64,000 bases of DNA from Thermoplasma volcanium GSS1 (GTDB lineage Archaea; Thermoplasmatota; Thermoplasmata; Thermoplasmatales; Thermoplasmataceae). The notes beneath the pieces were generated by a model, which saw only the letters and a program-made list of their open reading frames with translations, had not been told where the DNA came from and searched no databases. Location of the stretch: the NCBI RefSeq assembly GCF_000011185.1, contig NC_002689.2, positions 1,240,001-1,304,000 on the forward strand, in the 5' to 3' direction. The position numbers and the translations under genes were made by a program. The first letter of the stretch is position 1. The number at the start of each line of letters is the position of its first letter. Positions 4,656 through 21,565 of the stretch are shown piece after piece.

Positions 4656-5837
4656 TCAAATATCCATCGATATTTGGCTTCCTGCCATCTGCTCCACATC
4701 TTTTGACTGCTTCACAGCTTCACCTGGCAGGCCTTTATGGGATCGTTTCAGACATGTCCGATACCTGAATGCAATGTTTATGCATGCATTCACATCACGG
4801 TCTATCTCAAGACCGCAGGAATCACACTTCAGGATCCTGCCATGCTCTATTCGGGTCAGTGACCCACATACCGAGCACATCCTGCTGGTGTTCCTTGTTT
4901 CCTTTCTTGTCAGCTCTATGACAGGAAGGCCTTCCCATGATGCCTTATACATTACCTGGGATGCAAGCATTCCATATGGAAACGCATTCTTAAGAAGGAA
5001 CCTGTAATCCTTCCCTTTTCCATCGCCCTTCTTTGTAATCTGATTTATTCCTATAATGTTCTCAAGGACGATCATCTCTTTTTTCGTGGATGCGTTAGAG
5101 ACAATTGCCTTGCTTGTTTCATGCATGATCTGCTTTACCCTGTTTCTTTCCCTCTTTCCATACTTTGATAAAATCTTCTCTCGAATCCTCCTGTCATTCC
5201 TGTGGAAATGGGATTCCTTCTTCCTGTAGCGTTGCTTGATCTCAACTATATTCGAGAGATCGTATATTTCATGATGGAATTCATTCCCTACTGTTATATT
5301 CCTTAAATTCCGATCAACACCGACTGTAGTGGTGCATTCAATAGCATCGACATCCCTCCCTATGGTGAGAGAGAGTGTGTACGCCGACAAAGCAAAAGAA
5401 TGCACTTTCACCATCGATGTTGCATCTCTTACATATGCATTCAGTGGTATGCTTTCGTATTCCCTATTGGCTATTGGGATCATTATGTTTCCGCCAACTA
5501 TCTTAAACCCATAATATGTGGATAGCATTGGTTTCTCGACGTGAGGCACGGTTGCCTTCTGCTTTTTCTTCAATCTTTTCCTGTATGTCTTCACAAGTGC
5601 AACTGCCTTGTTAATGGCTTCTATATAATAATACGAAGGTATCTCGTATTCCTTAAGTTTATGATAAACTTCATTCGATACAGAATTTCTTGATGTAAGA
5701 TTCTTCTCAATCATAATATTTATCGTGAAATTGACCATATCAGTAAACTTATGCATAAGCACCTTCAGGTTATCAGAAGGATAGAAATACTGTTTTACGG
5801 CCTTGAAAGCGTACACAAATACATATACCACTATCAT
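4656..5837 (-). CDS. tnpB: TnpB (IS200/IS605-type, RuvC RNA-guided nuclease), solo
   Basis: A 393-residue TnpB, the ancestor-type RNA-guided DNA nuclease of IS200/IS605 elements. All three RuvC acidic residues appear present: D175 in GVDRNLRN, E259 in MIVLENI and D348 in DRDVNACIN. The zinc knuckle before the last motif has C321, C324, C338 and C341. The reading frame is intact. No TnpA transposase lies within several kb, so this is a solo TnpB or a remnant of an IS605-like element. A perfect 8-bp hairpin spans the stop codon (see 4657-4676), where the right end and omegaRNA scaffold would be expected. The family call is secure; activity is inference. Confidence 0.9.
   Translation of the reverse strand: MIVVYVFVYAFKAVKQYFYPSDNLKVLMHKFTDMVNFTINIMIEKNLTSRNSVSNEVYHKLKEYEIPSYYYIEAINKAVALVKTYRKRLKKKQKATVPHVEKPMLSTYYGFKIVGGNIMIPIANREYESIPLNAYVRDATSMVKVHSFALSAYTLSLTIGRDVDAIECTTTVGVDRNLRNITVGNEFHHEIYDLSNIVEIKQRYRKKESHFHRNDRRIREKILSKYGKRERNRVKQIMHETSKAIVSNASTKKEMIVLENIIGINQITKKGDGKGKDYRFLLKNAFPYGMLASQVMYKASWEGLPVIELTRKETRNTSRMCSVCGSLTRIEHGRILKCDSCGLEIDRDVNACINIAFRYRTCLKRSHKGLPGEAVKQSKDVEQMAGSQISMDI
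4657..4676 (-). other. Hairpin at the 3' end of tnpB (possible omegaRNA / right-end structure)
   Basis: CAAATATC-CATC-GATATTTG is a perfect 8-bp stem with a 4-nt loop. It overlaps the last codons and the stop of tnpB. IS200/IS605 right ends carry a subterminal hairpin here, and the omegaRNA is transcribed from this part of the gene. Function is inferred from position and symmetry only. Confidence 0.45.
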
Positions 5838-10054: not shown

Positions 10055-11221
10055 CTATGTAAAACCTCTTTTTTCCCATCCTTCACTGAAAAGATTGAAA
10101 TCCTTGTTTGTCTCATCAGCAAGATAGTCTTTCACGCGATCCTTGAGTGATATTCCTATTCCCGGTCTTTGTTCTACCTTCTCATAACCTGATATTATTT
10201 CAGGTTTGCTGTCCACAATATCCCACGTCCACTCGGGATAGGCGTACTCGTCGAACATTTCCTGGATCTTAAGGTTAGGAAGTGTCGCATCGAACTGCAT
10301 TGTAATAAAAGTATTCACCGGACCTTCAGCTTGATGGGGGGCTATTGCAATGTTATAAGCCTCTGCCATTGAGGCTATTTTCTTAGCTTCAAAGAGGCCA
10401 CCAGTATTAATAACATCTGGCTGAGCAATGTGAATTGCACCTAGTTCAAATGGTTTAATAAAATCAAACCTCGTAACATATCTTTCTCCCGCCGCTATTG
10501 GGATACTAGTGGATCTGGCTATCATCGCCATTCCTTCGATGTCTTCTGGAATTACTGGCTCTTCAAACCAACCTATATTTTCAAAACCTTCTAGATATTT
10601 GGCAATCTTTAAAGCTGTAGATCTATTGAACCTACCGTGTCCTTCTATTAAGAGTTCTACGTTCTTGCCAACTGCATCGTGGACAGATTCAATTATATCT
10701 CTTGCTCTATTCCATTCATTATCGTCAAGAAAACCAGATCCCGCTCCAAAAGGATCAAATTTAAGGGCTCTATATCCCCTTGATACAACACCTGATGCGA
10801 GTTTTTTCCAATCATCAATGGTGTCTGCTGAAGTATACCAACCATTGGCATATACTTTTATTCTATCTCTAAATTTTCCTCCAAGAAAAGTATAAACTGG
10901 GCATCCAAAGTGTTTACCCATTATGTCCCATAATGCTGTTTCTATTCCACTCATTAAACTAATACTAATAAGATCTTTGCTTCTATTAAATGTCCTCAAC
11001 ATCCAGTTAGTTACGAATTTATCTATCTCAAACGGATTAGCTCCAGTTATAAGATCCCCAAGGTCCCTTATTCTTTCCTTAAGAGAAAACTGTCCATTAT
11101 AAACTGTAGCCTCCCCTGTACCTACGGTACCATCATTAGTTATGAGTTCAAGAAAGACCCATTTCTTCCAAGGATTTCTCACTATATATGTTCTAATATC
11201 TGTAATCTTTTCCTCATACAT
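10055..11221 (-). CDS. Sugar-acid dehydratase, enolase superfamily (gluconate/galactonate type)
   Basis: A 388-residue mandelate-racemase-like member of the enolase superfamily. Capping-domain residues are at 1-130. In the barrel, KFDPFG carries the acid/base Lys region, then come the metal ligand segments EGHGRF, WFEEP and AAGERY, followed by QPDVINTGG and the catalytic His in APHQAEG. Such enzymes dehydrate D-gluconate or D-galactonate to 2-keto-3-deoxy acids, the second step of the non-phosphorylative Entner-Doudoroff pathway of Thermoplasma relatives. The KDG-aldolase-like gene at 49977 would act next. The gene is intact although remnants lie on both sides. The exact substrate is not decidable from sequence. 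Confidence 0.85.
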   Translation of the reverse strand: MYEEKITDIRTYIVRNPWKKWVFLELITNDGTVGTGEATVYNGQFSLKERIRDLGDLITGANPFEIDKFVTNWMLRTFNRSKDLISISLMSGIETALWDIMGKHFGCPVYTFLGGKFRDRIKVYANGWYTSADTIDDWKKLASGVVSRGYRALKFDPFGAGSGFLDDNEWNRARDIIESVHDAVGKNVELLIEGHGRFNRSTALKIAKYLEGFENIGWFEEPVIPEDIEGMAMIARSTSIPIAAGERYVTRFDFIKPFELGAIHIAQPDVINTGGLFEAKKIASMAEAYNIAIAPHQAEGPVNTFITMQFDATLPNLKIQEMFDEYAYPEWTWDIVDSKPEIISGYEKVEQRPGIGISLKDRVKDYLADETNKDFNLFSEGWEKRGFT

Positions 11222-15889: not shown

Positions 15890-17431
15890 TTAAAGGAACA
15901 CTTTTGGTATTTCACGATCCATATTTATAATCAATACCCTTGCCTCATCACCTTCCCTTAGCCACTGCAGATCCTTTAAATTTGGATCAGCAACCTTTAC
16001 CGGTATATGAAATGCTTTGACAAGATTCTCCGCATCAATATTTGGCTTCAAGAAGTCTTTGTCCGCTACCTCGTTATAATAGCTTTTTGAAAAGCTCCTT
16101 AGTATCATATATCCGCCATTGTTCAATATTATAATCTTCAAGGGTAGATTGTACCTTTCTATGGTCCATAAGGTTTGAGGAGTGTACATGAATGAACCGT
16201 CGCCTACCACGGCAAGTACTTTTCCTTTTTTTAAAGACATACCGGCTCCTGCTGGCAATGCCCATCCCAACTGTCCAGTTTTAGCAGTAAAATACGAATT
16301 ATGCTCGTAAACCAAAAAACTTCTGAAAGTTTGTGAAGCTGAAATCGATTCATCTACTATTACATAATCTCTAAATTCCTTGGCTATCTTGCTCATTACG
16401 TATGCCGTTCCCATCTTTTTCCTAGCCAAGGTTATTGAAGTTTTTACTGTATAATTAGGTGATCTTGAGAAGTTACATTTTCTTTGTACCAATCCCATTA
16501 TCTCCCTTAGGAACATTTTTGGATTCATCTGGTAATGTGTACCGATCTTTCCCGAGTTGTCTGTACCAACAAATATAACGGTTTTTCCTTGCAATGGAGG
16601 TGGTGGAGTATAAGGATAAAGGGTTATATCCCCACCAACAACCAGGACAAGATCGTGTTGCATAAGTTTCATGTTTAACAGGGCCGATGCAGGTGGGAGA
16701 TCCCCAGCGTACTGAGGGTCATCAGATGGATAACAGCCCCTGCTCGCCAACGGCTCACAATAAACGGGACATCCAAGTGCATGAGCGAAATCCTTTGCTT
16801 CTTCAAAAGCGTCGTAAAGATCTATTTCATATCCAAAGACTATGGCCGGATACTTCGCCCCATTTATCATGTCTGCTATTTCCCTTAAAGCCTTCTTATC
16901 TATCCATTCGTAGTCTATTTTATGGAAATCATCAAATTTTTCATTGTATTCTTCATCCATCACATTCATAGGAAAGCTCAGGAATACTGGACCTTTTGGT
17001 GGAGCCTCTGCTATTTGATACGCTCTTTTTAACGATCTGTAAATGTCATCGGCCTGTTTCACTTCGTATTTATACTTAACTAGTCCAGATACAAGGCTAG
17101 TAAGGTCTCCGGATAATATTGGCTCGTAAAAGATATGCCTATAGTCCTGCTGTCCAGCAGTGACTATGACTGGGGATCGATTATAAAAGGCAGTGTGCAG
17201 AAAGGCAATTGAGTTCCCTATTCCAGGAACTGTATGTAGGTTGCACAGCGTAGGCGAACCTGTTACTTGTGCCTTTCCATCAGCCATACCCACAGAAATA
17301 GAATCATGCAGCGTTAATACATAGTCATTTACCGATCTTAGCATTGGAATCTCCGTGGTTCCCGGGTTGCCAAATACCTCTTCTATACCAAGTTTTTTGA
17401 GGCTTTCGGCGAATATCTCATATCCCTTCAT
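15890..17431 (-). CDS. ThDP-dependent 2-oxo-acid decarboxylase-like enzyme (benzoylformate decarboxylase type)
   Basis: A 513-residue ThDP enzyme closest in pattern to benzoylformate decarboxylase: FGNPGTTEIPML, NLHTVPGIGNS with the catalytic-type H66, VIVTAGQQ, and the ThDP/Mg motif GDGSFMYTPQ ... LNNGGY in the last domain. The residue expected to be the ThDP-activating glutamate (QE in the bacterial enzyme) is Asp here, in LHD at 41-43. This gene begins directly after the stop of a D-2-hydroxyacid dehydrogenase, so the two form an operon acting on 2-oxo acids: reduction by one, decarboxylation or carboligation by the other. The substrate is unknown, and an acetolactate-synthase-like role is an alternative. 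Confidence 0.8.
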   Translation of the reverse strand: MKGYEIFAESLKKLGIEEVFGNPGTTEIPMLRSVNDYVLTLHDSISVGMADGKAQVTGSPTLCNLHTVPGIGNSIAFLHTAFYNRSPVIVTAGQQDYRHIFYEPILSGDLTSLVSGLVKYKYEVKQADDIYRSLKRAYQIAEAPPKGPVFLSFPMNVMDEEYNEKFDDFHKIDYEWIDKKALREIADMINGAKYPAIVFGYEIDLYDAFEEAKDFAHALGCPVYCEPLASRGCYPSDDPQYAGDLPPASALLNMKLMQHDLVLVVGGDITLYPYTPPPPLQGKTVIFVGTDNSGKIGTHYQMNPKMFLREIMGLVQRKCNFSRSPNYTVKTSITLARKKMGTAYVMSKIAKEFRDYVIVDESISASQTFRSFLVYEHNSYFTAKTGQLGWALPAGAGMSLKKGKVLAVVGDGSFMYTPQTLWTIERYNLPLKIIILNNGGYMILRSFSKSYYNEVADKDFLKPNIDAENLVKAFHIPVKVADPNLKDLQWLREGDEARVLIINMDREIPKVFL

Positions 17432-18361
17432 CTACAACACCCTGTTTAAAGGATCTACACCCTGCATGTACCTAATCACATTGGCTACCGTTTCTTCTAT
17501 AAATCTCCTCTGGCTCTCCACAGTCACACCTGCTATATGGGGGCTGAATAGAGCGTTATCCATCTGAAAGAGTTCAGAAGAAAAATCAGGTGGTTCTCTG
17601 TCGTATACGTCTATGCCTGCCTTTATTTTTCCCTGCTTTAGAGCCCAAACTAGATCCTTAGTAACTACAACTTCCGCCCTAGAAGTGTTTATGAATATGC
17701 ATCCGTCCTTCATCTTTTCAAATTCCTTTCTCCCTATCATTCCCTTCGTAGTTTCTGTGAGCGGTACATGTATTGATATTATGTCAGCAGAGGATATCAA
17801 TTCGTCCAAAGTTACGTACGTAATACCAAGTTCGTCTTCAACCTCTTCTGGAAGCCTTTTTACATCATAATAAATTATTCCTACACCAAATTGGATAAGC
17901 CTCTCTGCAAGCTTTCTCCCTATAGCACCCATTCCAATTATTCCAAAGACTTTCCCCATAAGATCGCGAGAAAATGTCAGAATCGGCCAGTTGCCATTTC
18001 GTATTTCCCTGTCCAAGTGCCCGAAATCTTTTAGGAAATATAGAGCCATCCCAATAACATGTTCTGCGACGCTTTCTTTGTTTGAACTAGGAGAGTTGCA
18101 CATGAGTATGTTTCGGCTCTTAACTTCCGTCACATCGACGTTGTCATATCCCGTACTTGCTACCTGGATAAACTTCAGTCTTGGAAATTTGTCCAGCAAA
18201 GCTTTATCAACCTTTGTAAAAGCAGTTACAATTAAGATATCGCTTTCATCGCTTTTAAAGTCAAGATCTGTTATTATGTTAATATCAGGCAGCACTGATG
18301 CCGCAAGCTTTCTTATTTCACCAACAGGAAGAAAGTTAGGAAGCACAGCTGATACTTTCAT
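17432..18361 (-). CDS. D-2-hydroxyacid dehydrogenase (NAD(P)-dependent)
   Basis: A 309-residue dehydrogenase that interconverts 2-oxo acids and D-2-hydroxy acids. The Rossmann motif is GMGAIG at 143-148. The catalytic set is R228 (NTSRAEV), E256 (YDREPP) and H275 (SPHIAG). It is shorter than 3-phosphoglycerate dehydrogenases and lacks an ACT domain, so a glyoxylate/hydroxypyruvate or other 2-oxo-acid reductase is more likely. It is first in the operon, and its stop abuts the ATG of the ThDP enzyme with no spacer. Confidence 0.88.
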   Translation of the reverse strand: MKVSAVLPNFLPVGEIRKLAASVLPDINIITDLDFKSDESDILIVTAFTKVDKALLDKFPRLKFIQVASTGYDNVDVTEVKSRNILMCNSPSSNKESVAEHVIGMALYFLKDFGHLDREIRNGNWPILTFSRDLMGKVFGIIGMGAIGRKLAERLIQFGVGIIYYDVKRLPEEVEDELGITYVTLDELISSADIISIHVPLTETTKGMIGRKEFEKMKDGCIFINTSRAEVVVTKDLVWALKQGKIKAGIDVYDREPPDFSSELFQMDNALFSPHIAGVTVESQRRFIEETVANVIRYMQGVDPLNRVL

Positions 18362-18482: not shown

Positions 18483-18953
18483 ATGAGATGGATAACAAGG
18501 GAAAAGGCTAAAGTGGACAGAATAGCCTGCCCGTGGCTAATATCAAGATTTATCGATCCTGAAGGTGAATTTTTTGTTCCAAAGGATCAAGTATTAGTGA
18601 AAGGGAAAGAATTTGGTGCGGTTCCATTCTACGTTCAAGGCTGTGAGCTTACATATTTTGTAGAAAACGGTACAGAATACGTAAGCTTCGATCCTATAAT
18701 TAGGAAATATGGACTAGATGATCCGGCCTTGCTAGAGCTTGCTAAGATAATGAGAAGCGCAGATCCTGCCCAACCAAACCCTGAGAAGAAGAGATTCGGA
18801 TTAAAAGTGCTAGCAGAAGGTTTTCGCATGATTTCTAAGAACTATTACGAAAACATGAAGCTCCAATTTCCCGCATACGACGCACTATATGCATATTGCA
18901 GATCAAAAATAAATAATTCCGGTAAAACACGAATGTTAATACAAATATTTTAA
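18483..18953 (+). CDS. ChrB-domain protein
   Basis: A 156-residue protein containing the ChrB C-terminal domain: MRWITREKAKVDRIACPWLI, SRFIDPEGEFFVPKDQV and the later LDDPALLELAKIMRSADP. In bacteria this domain is fused to a regulator of chromate resistance, and stand-alone versions are common in archaea with no established activity. No ChrA chromate transporter is visible in the window. TATA-like sequence (CATAAATATAAAG) lies upstream. The domain is clear; the function is not. Confidence 0.75.
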   Translation: MRWITREKAKVDRIACPWLISRFIDPEGEFFVPKDQVLVKGKEFGAVPFYVQGCELTYFVENGTEYVSFDPIIRKYGLDDPALLELAKIMRSADPAQPNPEKKRFGLKVLAEGFRMISKNYYENMKLQFPAYDALYAYCRSKINNSGKTRMLIQIF

Positions 18954-18976
18954 TAACTCAATTTTATTAAAACTTT

Positions 18977-21565
18977 ATGCGAATCAAGTTAACAAGGCTC
19001 GTTATAACGTTAGTTATACTGATAGTTTTGCTATTTTCCATGTTCACATCTATAGGCCCACTGCCACCTTTGGCGAAGATACTTAATCCGTCTACAGGTA
19101 TCTTTTCAGCTCCATCAAAGGATTCCTCATACAGTTATATCCCCGGAGCTGAGAATATCTCTATACAGTATAATGGCCAGAAATACACGGTTCTCGTGTT
19201 TAAACAGGCTGACGGGTTCATAGGAGTCGCATCCAATAATTCAAATGCAGTGTTCTATGAACAAGGATACCTAGAAGCACAATACAGGCTTGAAGAACTT
19301 GACTTTCTTAAAAGAACGGCTCTTGGTAACCTTTCTGCTGTTGTTGGTCAAACCACGCTAAGTACAGACATCCTGATGAGAGAACTGCAATTTTACAATA
19401 CAGCAGTCGAAGAATACCAGAACCTGCCGAAGACATCCTTTACGTATGAATCGCTCCATGCCTTTGTTTCCGGAATAAATGCGTACATTCAAAACCTAAC
19501 TTACTCTAAACTGCCGATATTGTTCAAAATATTGAATTATGAGCCGCACAAGTGGAACGTAACCGACGTGCTTGCAGTTCAGCAGTTATTTTTATGGGAA
19601 AACAGCGCGGGTGGATTTGATCCTGTCTATTTTAACATTGCCTTAGAAAAAATGCCTGAAAGCTTAATAAAAGCCATTTATCCAGCATATCCCGCGGGAA
19701 TACAGCATCCGATAGTTCCGTACAACCTGAATCCAAGTGTATATAACGAAACTGGAGATATTTCCAACCTATCCCTCTACACTCCAAGCTTCAATGTAAC
19801 TTATTCTTTATCTGCTTCATCCAGTGCTCTCATCTCATTCTACGATTCTGCCCAAAATGGATATTTAGAGGCTTCTAGGCTCTTTACTGGCAACGATATG
19901 AATTTGAAGATTTCCTACTCAGTTTTCCACGATTTCGGAAGCAACGACTGGGCAGTAAATGGCATCAAGACGCATAACACATCTGCTCTTTTAGCAAATG
20001 ATCCACACCTAACAACATCTTTGCCGCCTATATGGATGGGTTTCCAGCTGGTAGCGCCTGGAATGAACGTTATAGGTGTGACATTTCCAGGTTTTCCAGG
20101 CGTCATTCTTGGGCACAACCCCTACTTAGCGTGGGGTGCAACAAATGGGCAAATACAAGAAACGTACTTCTATGCTGAAGAAACATCTTCCCAGCATCCA
20201 AACAGTTATTTCTTCAATGGATCATGGATAAAATTCAAGATTGAAAATGAAACAATACAGGTAAAAGGTTCAAAACCCTACTTTATGAAAATTTATGTAG
20301 CCAAGAATGGTGTTGTAGTCGAGAACAGTTCTTCATCACCCATAGCTATAGACTGGACTGGGTTTATGCCTACTTACGAAATAACTTTCTTCCTCCATAT
20401 CGACAGAGCGCAAAGCGTATCGCAATTCAGACAGAATCTCACTCAATACTTCAAAGTAGCGATACAAAACTGGGCTGTAGCCGATTCTCGCGGGAATATA
20501 GGGATATTCCCTTACGGATTGTATCCTATAGTTGAGAGAGGAAACCCAAGGGGAATACTTCCAGGTACTGGTCAGTATGACTGGATGGGGTTCGTGCCAG
20601 TATCACAGTTGCCCTATTTATACGATCCGCAGAATGGCTTCGTATTTTCCGACAACCAGATAACCGTATCTCCAAATTATCCCTATTATATAGGCTGGGA
20701 CTATGAATCAGGATACAGAGCCGATGAAGCGTATACGCTTCTTAACTCCACATGGGATTTCAATTCAAAAGATATGGAAATGATACAGCTTAACGTACAT
20801 GATTTTACGACGGATATATTCCTGCACCCATTGCTAAAGGCAATGGACTACTACGGGCTTTCTGGAACCGAGGCATACCATTCGCTTGAAGCCTGGAATG
20901 GGGACATGTTGGTAAACTCAACAGCCGCGACCATATACTACTACTGGATTAGGGATTTCGTTAACGATACTTTCATGCCGTATATGCAGCACTATGGCAT
21001 AAATGAAAGTGACGGATTATACCAGGTATCCTTCTTCCTTGGGAGTGATGATTATTACCATGGGCCACTGATAGAAGACCTTGTAAATTGGACTTTAACA
21101 GATCCTAATATAAATTACTTCAATAATCCTGTTACAGGACAAAAAAGAAATGAATCTCAGGTAATGGCAGAAGCAATGAACCAAACGCTCGCATATATGA
21201 CTAAGAAATATGGGCCGTACTCTACAAGTTGGGAATGGGGCAACATACATAAAAGGTACTTGTCCAGCTTCTTCGGAATAAACGCCATGAACTCCGCTGA
21301 ATTGCCAGCCGCAGGCGATGGAAATACACTGAACGCCGCCTATGGAACGATCTCTGATTTTGGCCCATCTTGGAGGATGGTTGTTAATATGAGCCACCCA
21401 GTAACATCCGTTGGGATATATCCAGGCGGCATATCCGAAAACCCGCTTTCTCCATACTACGACAACACTTTTGTGGCGTGGAATAACGGGCAGTACTATA
21501 CTCTGATAAGCAGCAAAGCACCAGAGCAATTCTTTTATTTATACCGTGGGGGTGAGGTTCCTTGA
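18977..21565 (+). CDS. Penicillin-acylase-family N-terminal-nucleophile hydrolase, membrane-anchored
   Basis: An 862-residue protein of the penicillin/AHL acylase (Ntn hydrolase) family. An N-terminal hydrophobic helix (residues 8-27) exports or anchors it. A propeptide-like region with YLEAQYRLEELDFLKRTALG follows. The autoprocessing site GSNDWAVNG then gives Ser as the beta-chain nucleophile, and NDPHL, FPGFPGVILGHN and LAWGATN complete the pocket. Members cleave amides of penicillins, acyl-homoserine lactones or peptides. The substrate here is unknown; an extracellular acidic environment makes peptide or lipid amides plausible. It overlaps the next small membrane protein gene by TTGA. Confidence 0.88.
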   Translation: MRIKLTRLVITLVILIVLLFSMFTSIGPLPPLAKILNPSTGIFSAPSKDSSYSYIPGAENISIQYNGQKYTVLVFKQADGFIGVASNNSNAVFYEQGYLEAQYRLEELDFLKRTALGNLSAVVGQTTLSTDILMRELQFYNTAVEEYQNLPKTSFTYESLHAFVSGINAYIQNLTYSKLPILFKILNYEPHKWNVTDVLAVQQLFLWENSAGGFDPVYFNIALEKMPESLIKAIYPAYPAGIQHPIVPYNLNPSVYNETGDISNLSLYTPSFNVTYSLSASSSALISFYDSAQNGYLEASRLFTGNDMNLKISYSVFHDFGSNDWAVNGIKTHNTSALLANDPHLTTSLPPIWMGFQLVAPGMNVIGVTFPGFPGVILGHNPYLAWGATNGQIQETYFYAEETSSQHPNSYFFNGSWIKFKIENETIQVKGSKPYFMKIYVAKNGVVVENSSSSPIAIDWTGFMPTYEITFFLHIDRAQSVSQFRQNLTQYFKVAIQNWAVADSRGNIGIFPYGLYPIVERGNPRGILPGTGQYDWMGFVPVSQLPYLYDPQNGFVFSDNQITVSPNYPYYIGWDYESGYRADEAYTLLNSTWDFNSKDMEMIQLNVHDFTTDIFLHPLLKAMDYYGLSGTEAYHSLEAWNGDMLVNSTAATIYYYWIRDFVNDTFMPYMQHYGINESDGLYQVSFFLGSDDYYHGPLIEDLVNWTLTDPNINYFNNPVTGQKRNESQVMAEAMNQTLAYMTKKYGPYSTSWEWGNIHKRYLSSFFGINAMNSAELPAAGDGNTLNAAYGTISDFGPSWRMVVNMSHPVTSVGIYPGGISENPLSPYYDNTFVAWNNGQYYTLISSKAPEQFFYLYRGGEVP

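Follow-up and report, generated by a model that had tools for sequence, protein, structure and literature searches.

A predicted ThDP-dependent decarboxylase of the benzoylformate decarboxylase type with aspartate at the cofactor-activating glutamate position, paired with a D-2-hydroxyacid dehydrogenase in Thermoplasmata

The exchange of a proton between a glutamate and N1' of the cofactor is treated as a common element of thiamin diphosphate (ThDP) catalysis, and a 2019 computational paper assigns the handling of this proton to the conserved Glu with one known exception (PMC6350894). In a survey of about 3000 members of the ThDP-dependent decarboxylase superfamily, the site, Glu51 in standard numbering, was occupied by Glu in 94% and by Val in 3%, Val being the mark of the glyoxylate carboligases (PMC3534367). 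For archaea, a 2013 review reported no homologue of pyruvate decarboxylase (PMC4030962). The closest solved relatives of the enzyme described here are benzoylformate decarboxylases (BFDs).

In this study, we analyzed a window of 64,000 nucleotides, that is, the whole stretch of DNA from position 1,240,001 to 1,304,000 of the 1,584,804-base single-contig genome of Thermoplasma volcanium GSS1. On the minus strand, it carries a gene for a D-2-hydroxyacid dehydrogenase of 309 amino acids (17432–18361) and, directly downstream, a gene for a predicted ThDP-dependent 2-oxo acid decarboxylase of BFD type with 513 amino acids (15890–17431), recognized from its open reading frame, Pfam domains, solved relatives and an AlphaFold model. 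An earlier note on this DNA had described the two as abutting genes of these enzyme types, in agreement with the reading frames and Pfam, and had pointed to an Asp in place of the activating Glu. This substitution is fixed clade-wide and in a fixed gene pair, which makes the case stronger than the note knew.

For the ThDP enzyme, the Pfam families PF02776, PF00205 and PF02775 (TPP_enzyme_N, M and C) were all found above the cut-off, and the PYR, TH3 and PP domains of the ThDP-dependent decarboxylase superfamily are present. The top solved matches in phmmer were BFDs, namely the Mycobacterium smegmatis enzyme 4q9d (4.9e-71) and variants of the Pseudomonas putida enzyme (about 1e-62). An AlphaFold2 model, computed from the window protein and 51 relatives, had a mean pLDDT of 92.8. 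In comparisons of this model by Foldseek and VIA-align, BFD structures ranked first with Z-scores of 44–46 over 491–506 residues; with 4k9q the Z-score was 46, and the fold match spanned residues 1–510. The NCBIfam BFD model NF005485 gave 326.3 bits, below its curated cut-off of 493, and therefore the substrate is not readable from the family. From the set Ser26, His70, His281 and Glu47, which we take to form the BFD active site, His70 alone is kept (H66); the others are replaced by T25, P273 and D43, respectively. At the site of Ala460 in P. putida BFD the enzyme has Ile443, a hint that its substrates may be aliphatic and not of the benzoyl type; this reading is based on A460I swaps in BFD that have reportedly been published. 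The ThDP enzyme probably represents a distinct subfamily of the BFD type.

Asp43 is encoded by the codon GAT at 17303–17305 (minus strand). In the phmmer alignment it falls on the conserved Glu of the solved BFDs in a gap-free region, just as the earlier note had proposed by eye. The note had also named structural modelling as a test that could refute this placement; the confident model fits the BFD fold over its full length, and the helix 43–57 begins at D43. Between residues 28 and 102 of the window protein no other Glu occurs. A misalignment of D43 was ruled out, as there is neither a gap nor an alternative Glu nearby, and judging from the alignment no other Glu should lie near N1' of ThDP. 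At the site of the catalytic Glu51, which serves as a criterion of the superfamily, the enzyme has Asp43; since 6% of the accepted superfamily members are without Glu (PMC3534367), this does not exclude membership.

Homologous sequences were taken from the best 80 loci of a scan of species genomes and from 389 genomes of the phylum, of which 34 matched the ThDP enzyme at 1e-60. The alignment comprised 115 distinct sequences: 44 archaeal Asp rows, 70 bacterial-type rows including one entitled 'archaeon' (L126), and one broken archaeal row (L139), which was set aside from the counts due to a broken frame, a run of X and misalignment. The N-terminal fragment of the L139 gene reads Asp. When fragments and further copies that also have Asp (G010, G203, G366, G304 and the second copy of G206) are added to the 44 rows, Asp was found at position 43 in 49/49 archaeal family members read; G209 and additional copies from G101 and G145 are outside this tally. 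Named members include Thermoplasma, Ferroplasma and other Thermoplasmata genomes. Among the matches listed, bacterial relatives have Glu in 69/70 cases. In a tree built without the trait column and without L057 and the partial L139, 43 archaeal Asp rows formed one clade with an SH-aLRT support of 100, whose sister sequences are of Glu type and come from Fimbriimonadales, Alicyclobacillus and Actinomycetota; the Asp/Glu trait changed twice on this tree, the other change being that of L107. The alignment of archaeal homologues suggested in the earlier note therefore rules out a decay mutation of one strain.

L107 (6001–7581, plus strand), from the bacterium isolate QQ.bins.54.201705, is the sole Asp-type bacterial relative among the 70 listed matches. 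In the tree it falls beside a Neobacillus sequence of Glu type; its residue 387 is Ser, and its gene lies close to a tripartite tricarboxylate transporter and a 2-hydroxyacid dehydrogenase of the Ldh_2 family.

Other motif residues of the ThDP enzyme are also conserved. As the earlier note had indicated, alignment to the solved BFDs confirmed His66 and a GDG...N motif: GDG of the ThDP/Mg motif corresponds to G410, D411 and G412 (16196–16204, minus strand), Asn438 (codon 16118–16120, minus strand) is found in 43/43 Asp rows having a letter there, and His66 (codon 17234–17236, minus strand), aligned to His70 of the P. putida enzyme, in 44/44. With H66 and N438 kept and GDG nearly so, the family does not look degenerate. 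GEG replaces GDG in four archaeal Asp-type rows (L014, L015, L020 and a fourth).

The partner dehydrogenase consists of a catalytic and an NAD-binding domain (2-Hacid_dh, PF00389, and 2-Hacid_dh_C, PF02826); no NCBIfam subfamily reached its cut-off for this protein. R228, E256 and H275, which we take to be the putative catalytic Arg/Glu/His triad of D-2-hydroxyacid dehydrogenases, and the NAD-type D166 are each kept by 36 or more of the 37 distinct orthologues aligned. Zero bases lie between its stop codon and the ATG of the ThDP gene. The dehydrogenase gene lies immediately upstream of its partner at each of the 22 orthologous loci, although L015 contains its end alone at a contig edge, and the same order was found in L140–L142, which at about 40% identity are the three most divergent archaeal relatives in the comparison. 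A ThDP orthologue with at least 48% identity is present in 22 of 41 genomes, a set made up of the window's genome and 40 relatives, and the orthologue in G010, split by a frame break, raises this to 23/41. Both genes of the pair co-occur in these 23 genomes and are both absent from the other 18, which supports the module of 2-oxo acid and 2-hydroxy acid conversion envisaged in the earlier note. Six further ThDP copies with 42–49% identity in the same genome set are unpaired; such copies in Thermoplasma and Ferroplasma carry Asp too, showing that Asp is independent of pairing with the dehydrogenase. The junctions within the pair mostly abut, overlap or are a few bases long. In the window, the last dehydrogenase codons contain GGGTG (17438–17442, minus strand), a candidate Shine-Dalgarno-like element of the ThDP gene, and in 20/22 orthologous pairs, counted by eye, GGTG occurs in the 24 bases that precede the ThDP start. 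Tight junctions and upstream GGTG suggest coupled translation.

Clustering of neighboring genes was performed for 41 pair loci including the window, some of which share a genome (e.g. L043 and L056). Near the pair, an aldehyde dehydrogenase (ALDH) was present in 12/41, an iron alcohol dehydrogenase (Fe-ADH) in 11/41 and an SCP2-domain protein in 11/41 loci. In L047, L150 and L152 the genes are arranged on a single strand in the order pair, SCP2, ADH, ALDH; at other loci the arrangement is divergent or incomplete. In the window's genome, an SCP2/Fe-ADH/ALDH operon is located at 385,512–388,538, far from the pair, with identities to the pair-linked queries of 77% (SCP2), 65% (Fe-ADH) and 59% (ALDH). 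Across the 41 genomes the trio follows the pair only loosely: ALDH occurs in 12/23 genomes with the pair versus 2/18 without it, and under the thresholds used ALDH was missing from 11/23, Fe-ADH from 13/23 and SCP2 from 12/23 pair genomes. The trio was also found in two genomes without the pair, and within the window's own family its association with the pair is weak (Fisher p 0.04–0.10, ignoring relatedness). The SCP2 protein hints at hydrophobic substrates. For the bacterial sister loci L061–L130, any homologue of the five neighbor queries was present in 5/70 only, which gave no clue to function.

Several further genes were noted near these loci. In G001 (C1:893558–895048), the Fe-ADH gene next to the SCP2 gene is broken into two open frames and is possibly a pseudogene. 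Glycerolipid-type genes, i.e. a FAD-linked oxidase (AGPS-like by reading), a YegS-type lipid kinase and a GlpD-like DAO protein, are found at 6, 5 and 3 pair loci, respectively, as in L047 (96–4187), with counterparts close to the pair in L046, L048, L050, L053, L150 and L162. Lipid alpha-oxidation as the role of the pair was rejected, as these neighbors are scattered and no hydroxylase was seen among them; it was kept as a lead. At a distance of about 4.7 kb from the pair, the window encodes a mandelate racemase-like member of the enolase superfamily (10055–11221, minus strand). At 18483–21565 (plus strand), divergent from the pair, a protein with a ChrB C-terminal domain is followed by a large protein of the penicillin-amidase family. 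An open reading frame at 4656–5837 (minus strand) has a Cas12f1-like TNB domain and by reading encodes a TnpB-type transposon protein.

On balance, we favor the view that the pair forms a decarboxylative 2-hydroxy acid module of Thermoplasmatota, with Asp43 in the role of the Glu. The dehydrogenase would interconvert D-2-hydroxy acids and 2-oxo acids with NAD, and the ThDP enzyme would convert the 2-oxo acid to an aldehyde shorter by one carbon. In several species, the aldehyde could then be turned into the acid or alcohol by ALDH or Fe-ADH together with an SCP2-type carrier, whose genes are unlinked to the pair in the window's genome. The recurrent ALDH and ADH neighbors point to aldehyde-forming decarboxylation, a more specific function than the dismutation or salvage suggested previously. 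Within the active site, Asp43 would permanently replace the Glu in its proton exchange with the aminopyrimidine N1'. Changes in the surroundings probably make up for its shorter side chain, and Gln387 is the first candidate for such a change.

The codon of Gln387 (16271–16273, minus strand) belongs to a loop whose counterpart in P. putida BFD is Gly401-Gly402-Leu403; we equate position 387 with Gly402 in that numbering and assume it to be near the aminopyrimidine. In the 44 archaeal Asp rows, this position is occupied by Q (35 rows), P (5) or M (3), with a single gap and no G, while Gly is found in 61/69 Glu-type rows among the matches listed, with L139 set aside. Also, T40 is present in 38/44 Asp rows versus 2 Glu rows and F or Y at position 77 in 44/44 versus 0, and D204 and E226 likewise separate both groups. 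The link between Gln387 and Asp43 is an association among related sequences, not proof of compensation. Tentatively, as a possibility short of our expectation, an Asp-based site with a co-evolved Gln387 might activate ThDP by a longer relay and thereby alter rate, pH range or product, within a decarboxylative 2-hydroxy acid pathway coupled to the D-2-hydroxyacid dehydrogenase and to aldehyde and alcohol dehydrogenases, which is undescribed in the literature searched.

The same column is relevant for the view that Asp43 is too short to reach N1' and that ThDP is activated otherwise, by a bridging water, by Gln387 or without any acid, so that the enzyme would react more slowly or catalyze something else, for example carboligation. 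The replacement of Gly at 387 in 43/43 Asp rows with a letter there, and by Ser in L107, would fit this idea, as would the activity of glyoxylate carboligase without the Glu (PMC3534367). Asp, however, unlike Val, leaves a carboxylate at the same place, and the recurrent ALDH and Fe-ADH neighbors suggest aldehyde release, so that we regard activation by another route as unlikely.

Alternatively, Asp could have come down from a single ancestor as a conservative exchange of no functional consequence, with the protein acting as an ordinary 2-oxo acid decarboxylase in which nothing of note is tuned. A single origin in Thermoplasmatota accounts for the archaeal pattern, and Asp and Glu are chemically alike. 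Yet not one reversion was found among the 49 members, which diverge down to about 40% identity, and in a control covering non-family ThDP enzymes (acetolactate-synthase-like and others) encoded within the same order, Glu was present in 45/45, two pieces of L216 being excluded as parts of a split family member. Considering also the frequencies of Glu and Val in the superfamily survey (PMC3534367), a neutral change appears quite improbable.

The idea that Asp helps acidophiles to cope with an acidic cytosol, where its lower pKa would hold the aminopyrimidine in its active state, might be suggested by the family members, since Thermoplasma, Ferroplasma and other Thermoplasmata members are acidophiles; with Glu kept by all 45 same-order paralogues and Asp found in the bacterial L107 outside the group, an acidophile-wide effect is largely refuted and this explanation very remote. 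The chance that another acid, most likely Glu27, serves N1' with Asp43 as a bystander is practically negligible: Glu27 is invariant in all 44 Asp rows, and equally in all Glu rows and the Pseudomonas enzyme, where its counterpart Glu28 coexists with Glu47 (residue numbers as we assume them), so that Glu27 is not a newly recruited substitute.

Asp43 in the role of the Glu, as favored here, looks like a new natural variant in view of the one exception to the Glu rule known to the 2019 paper (PMC6350894). Clade-wide Asp, a fixed partner gene and Glu-type bacterial sisters together provide a natural experiment on the necessity of the Glu and its extra methylene group. In pyruvate decarboxylase, Glu-to-Asp mutants have reportedly been described. 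No earlier description of the Asp family was recognized in the literature searched, which mostly lies outside subscription journals, and a term look-up in the main text of three Thermoplasmatales genome papers gave no hit for decarboxylase, thiamin or acetolactate. The pair supplies a likely, predicted 2-oxo acid decarboxylase in archaea. As one mutant series would test Asp43, it should be of clear interest for ThDP enzymologists.

Compared with described systems, the ThDP enzyme shares its full-length fold with the BFDs of P. putida (1bfd), M. smegmatis (4q9d) and Polynucleobacter (4k9q) at Z-scores of 44–46 and 27–31% identity, as well as the His70 equivalent, the GDG...N motif and a glycine-rich N-terminal motif; a YPY stretch is common to it and 4q9d. 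It differs from BFD at Glu47 (Asp), Ser26 (Thr), His281 (Pro), Gly402 (Gln) and Ala460 (Ile), in BFD numbering, and by its pairing with a D-2-hydroxyacid dehydrogenase. 4-Hydroxybenzoylformate decarboxylases (7orx, 6qsi) have the same fold at about 30% identity. The glyoxylate carboligase of Escherichia coli (2PAN) likewise belongs to the ThDP decarboxylase superfamily and lacks the canonical Glu, but it is a carboligase with Val at this site (PMC3534367) and not the closest relative, whereas the family described here has Asp in 49/49 members. The partner has both domains, the Arg/Glu/His residues and the NAD-type Asp166 in common with D-2-hydroxyacid dehydrogenases such as glyoxylate reductase and 3-phosphoglycerate dehydrogenase (5aov, 1wwk), and differs from these known enzymes by being constantly paired with a ThDP decarboxylase.
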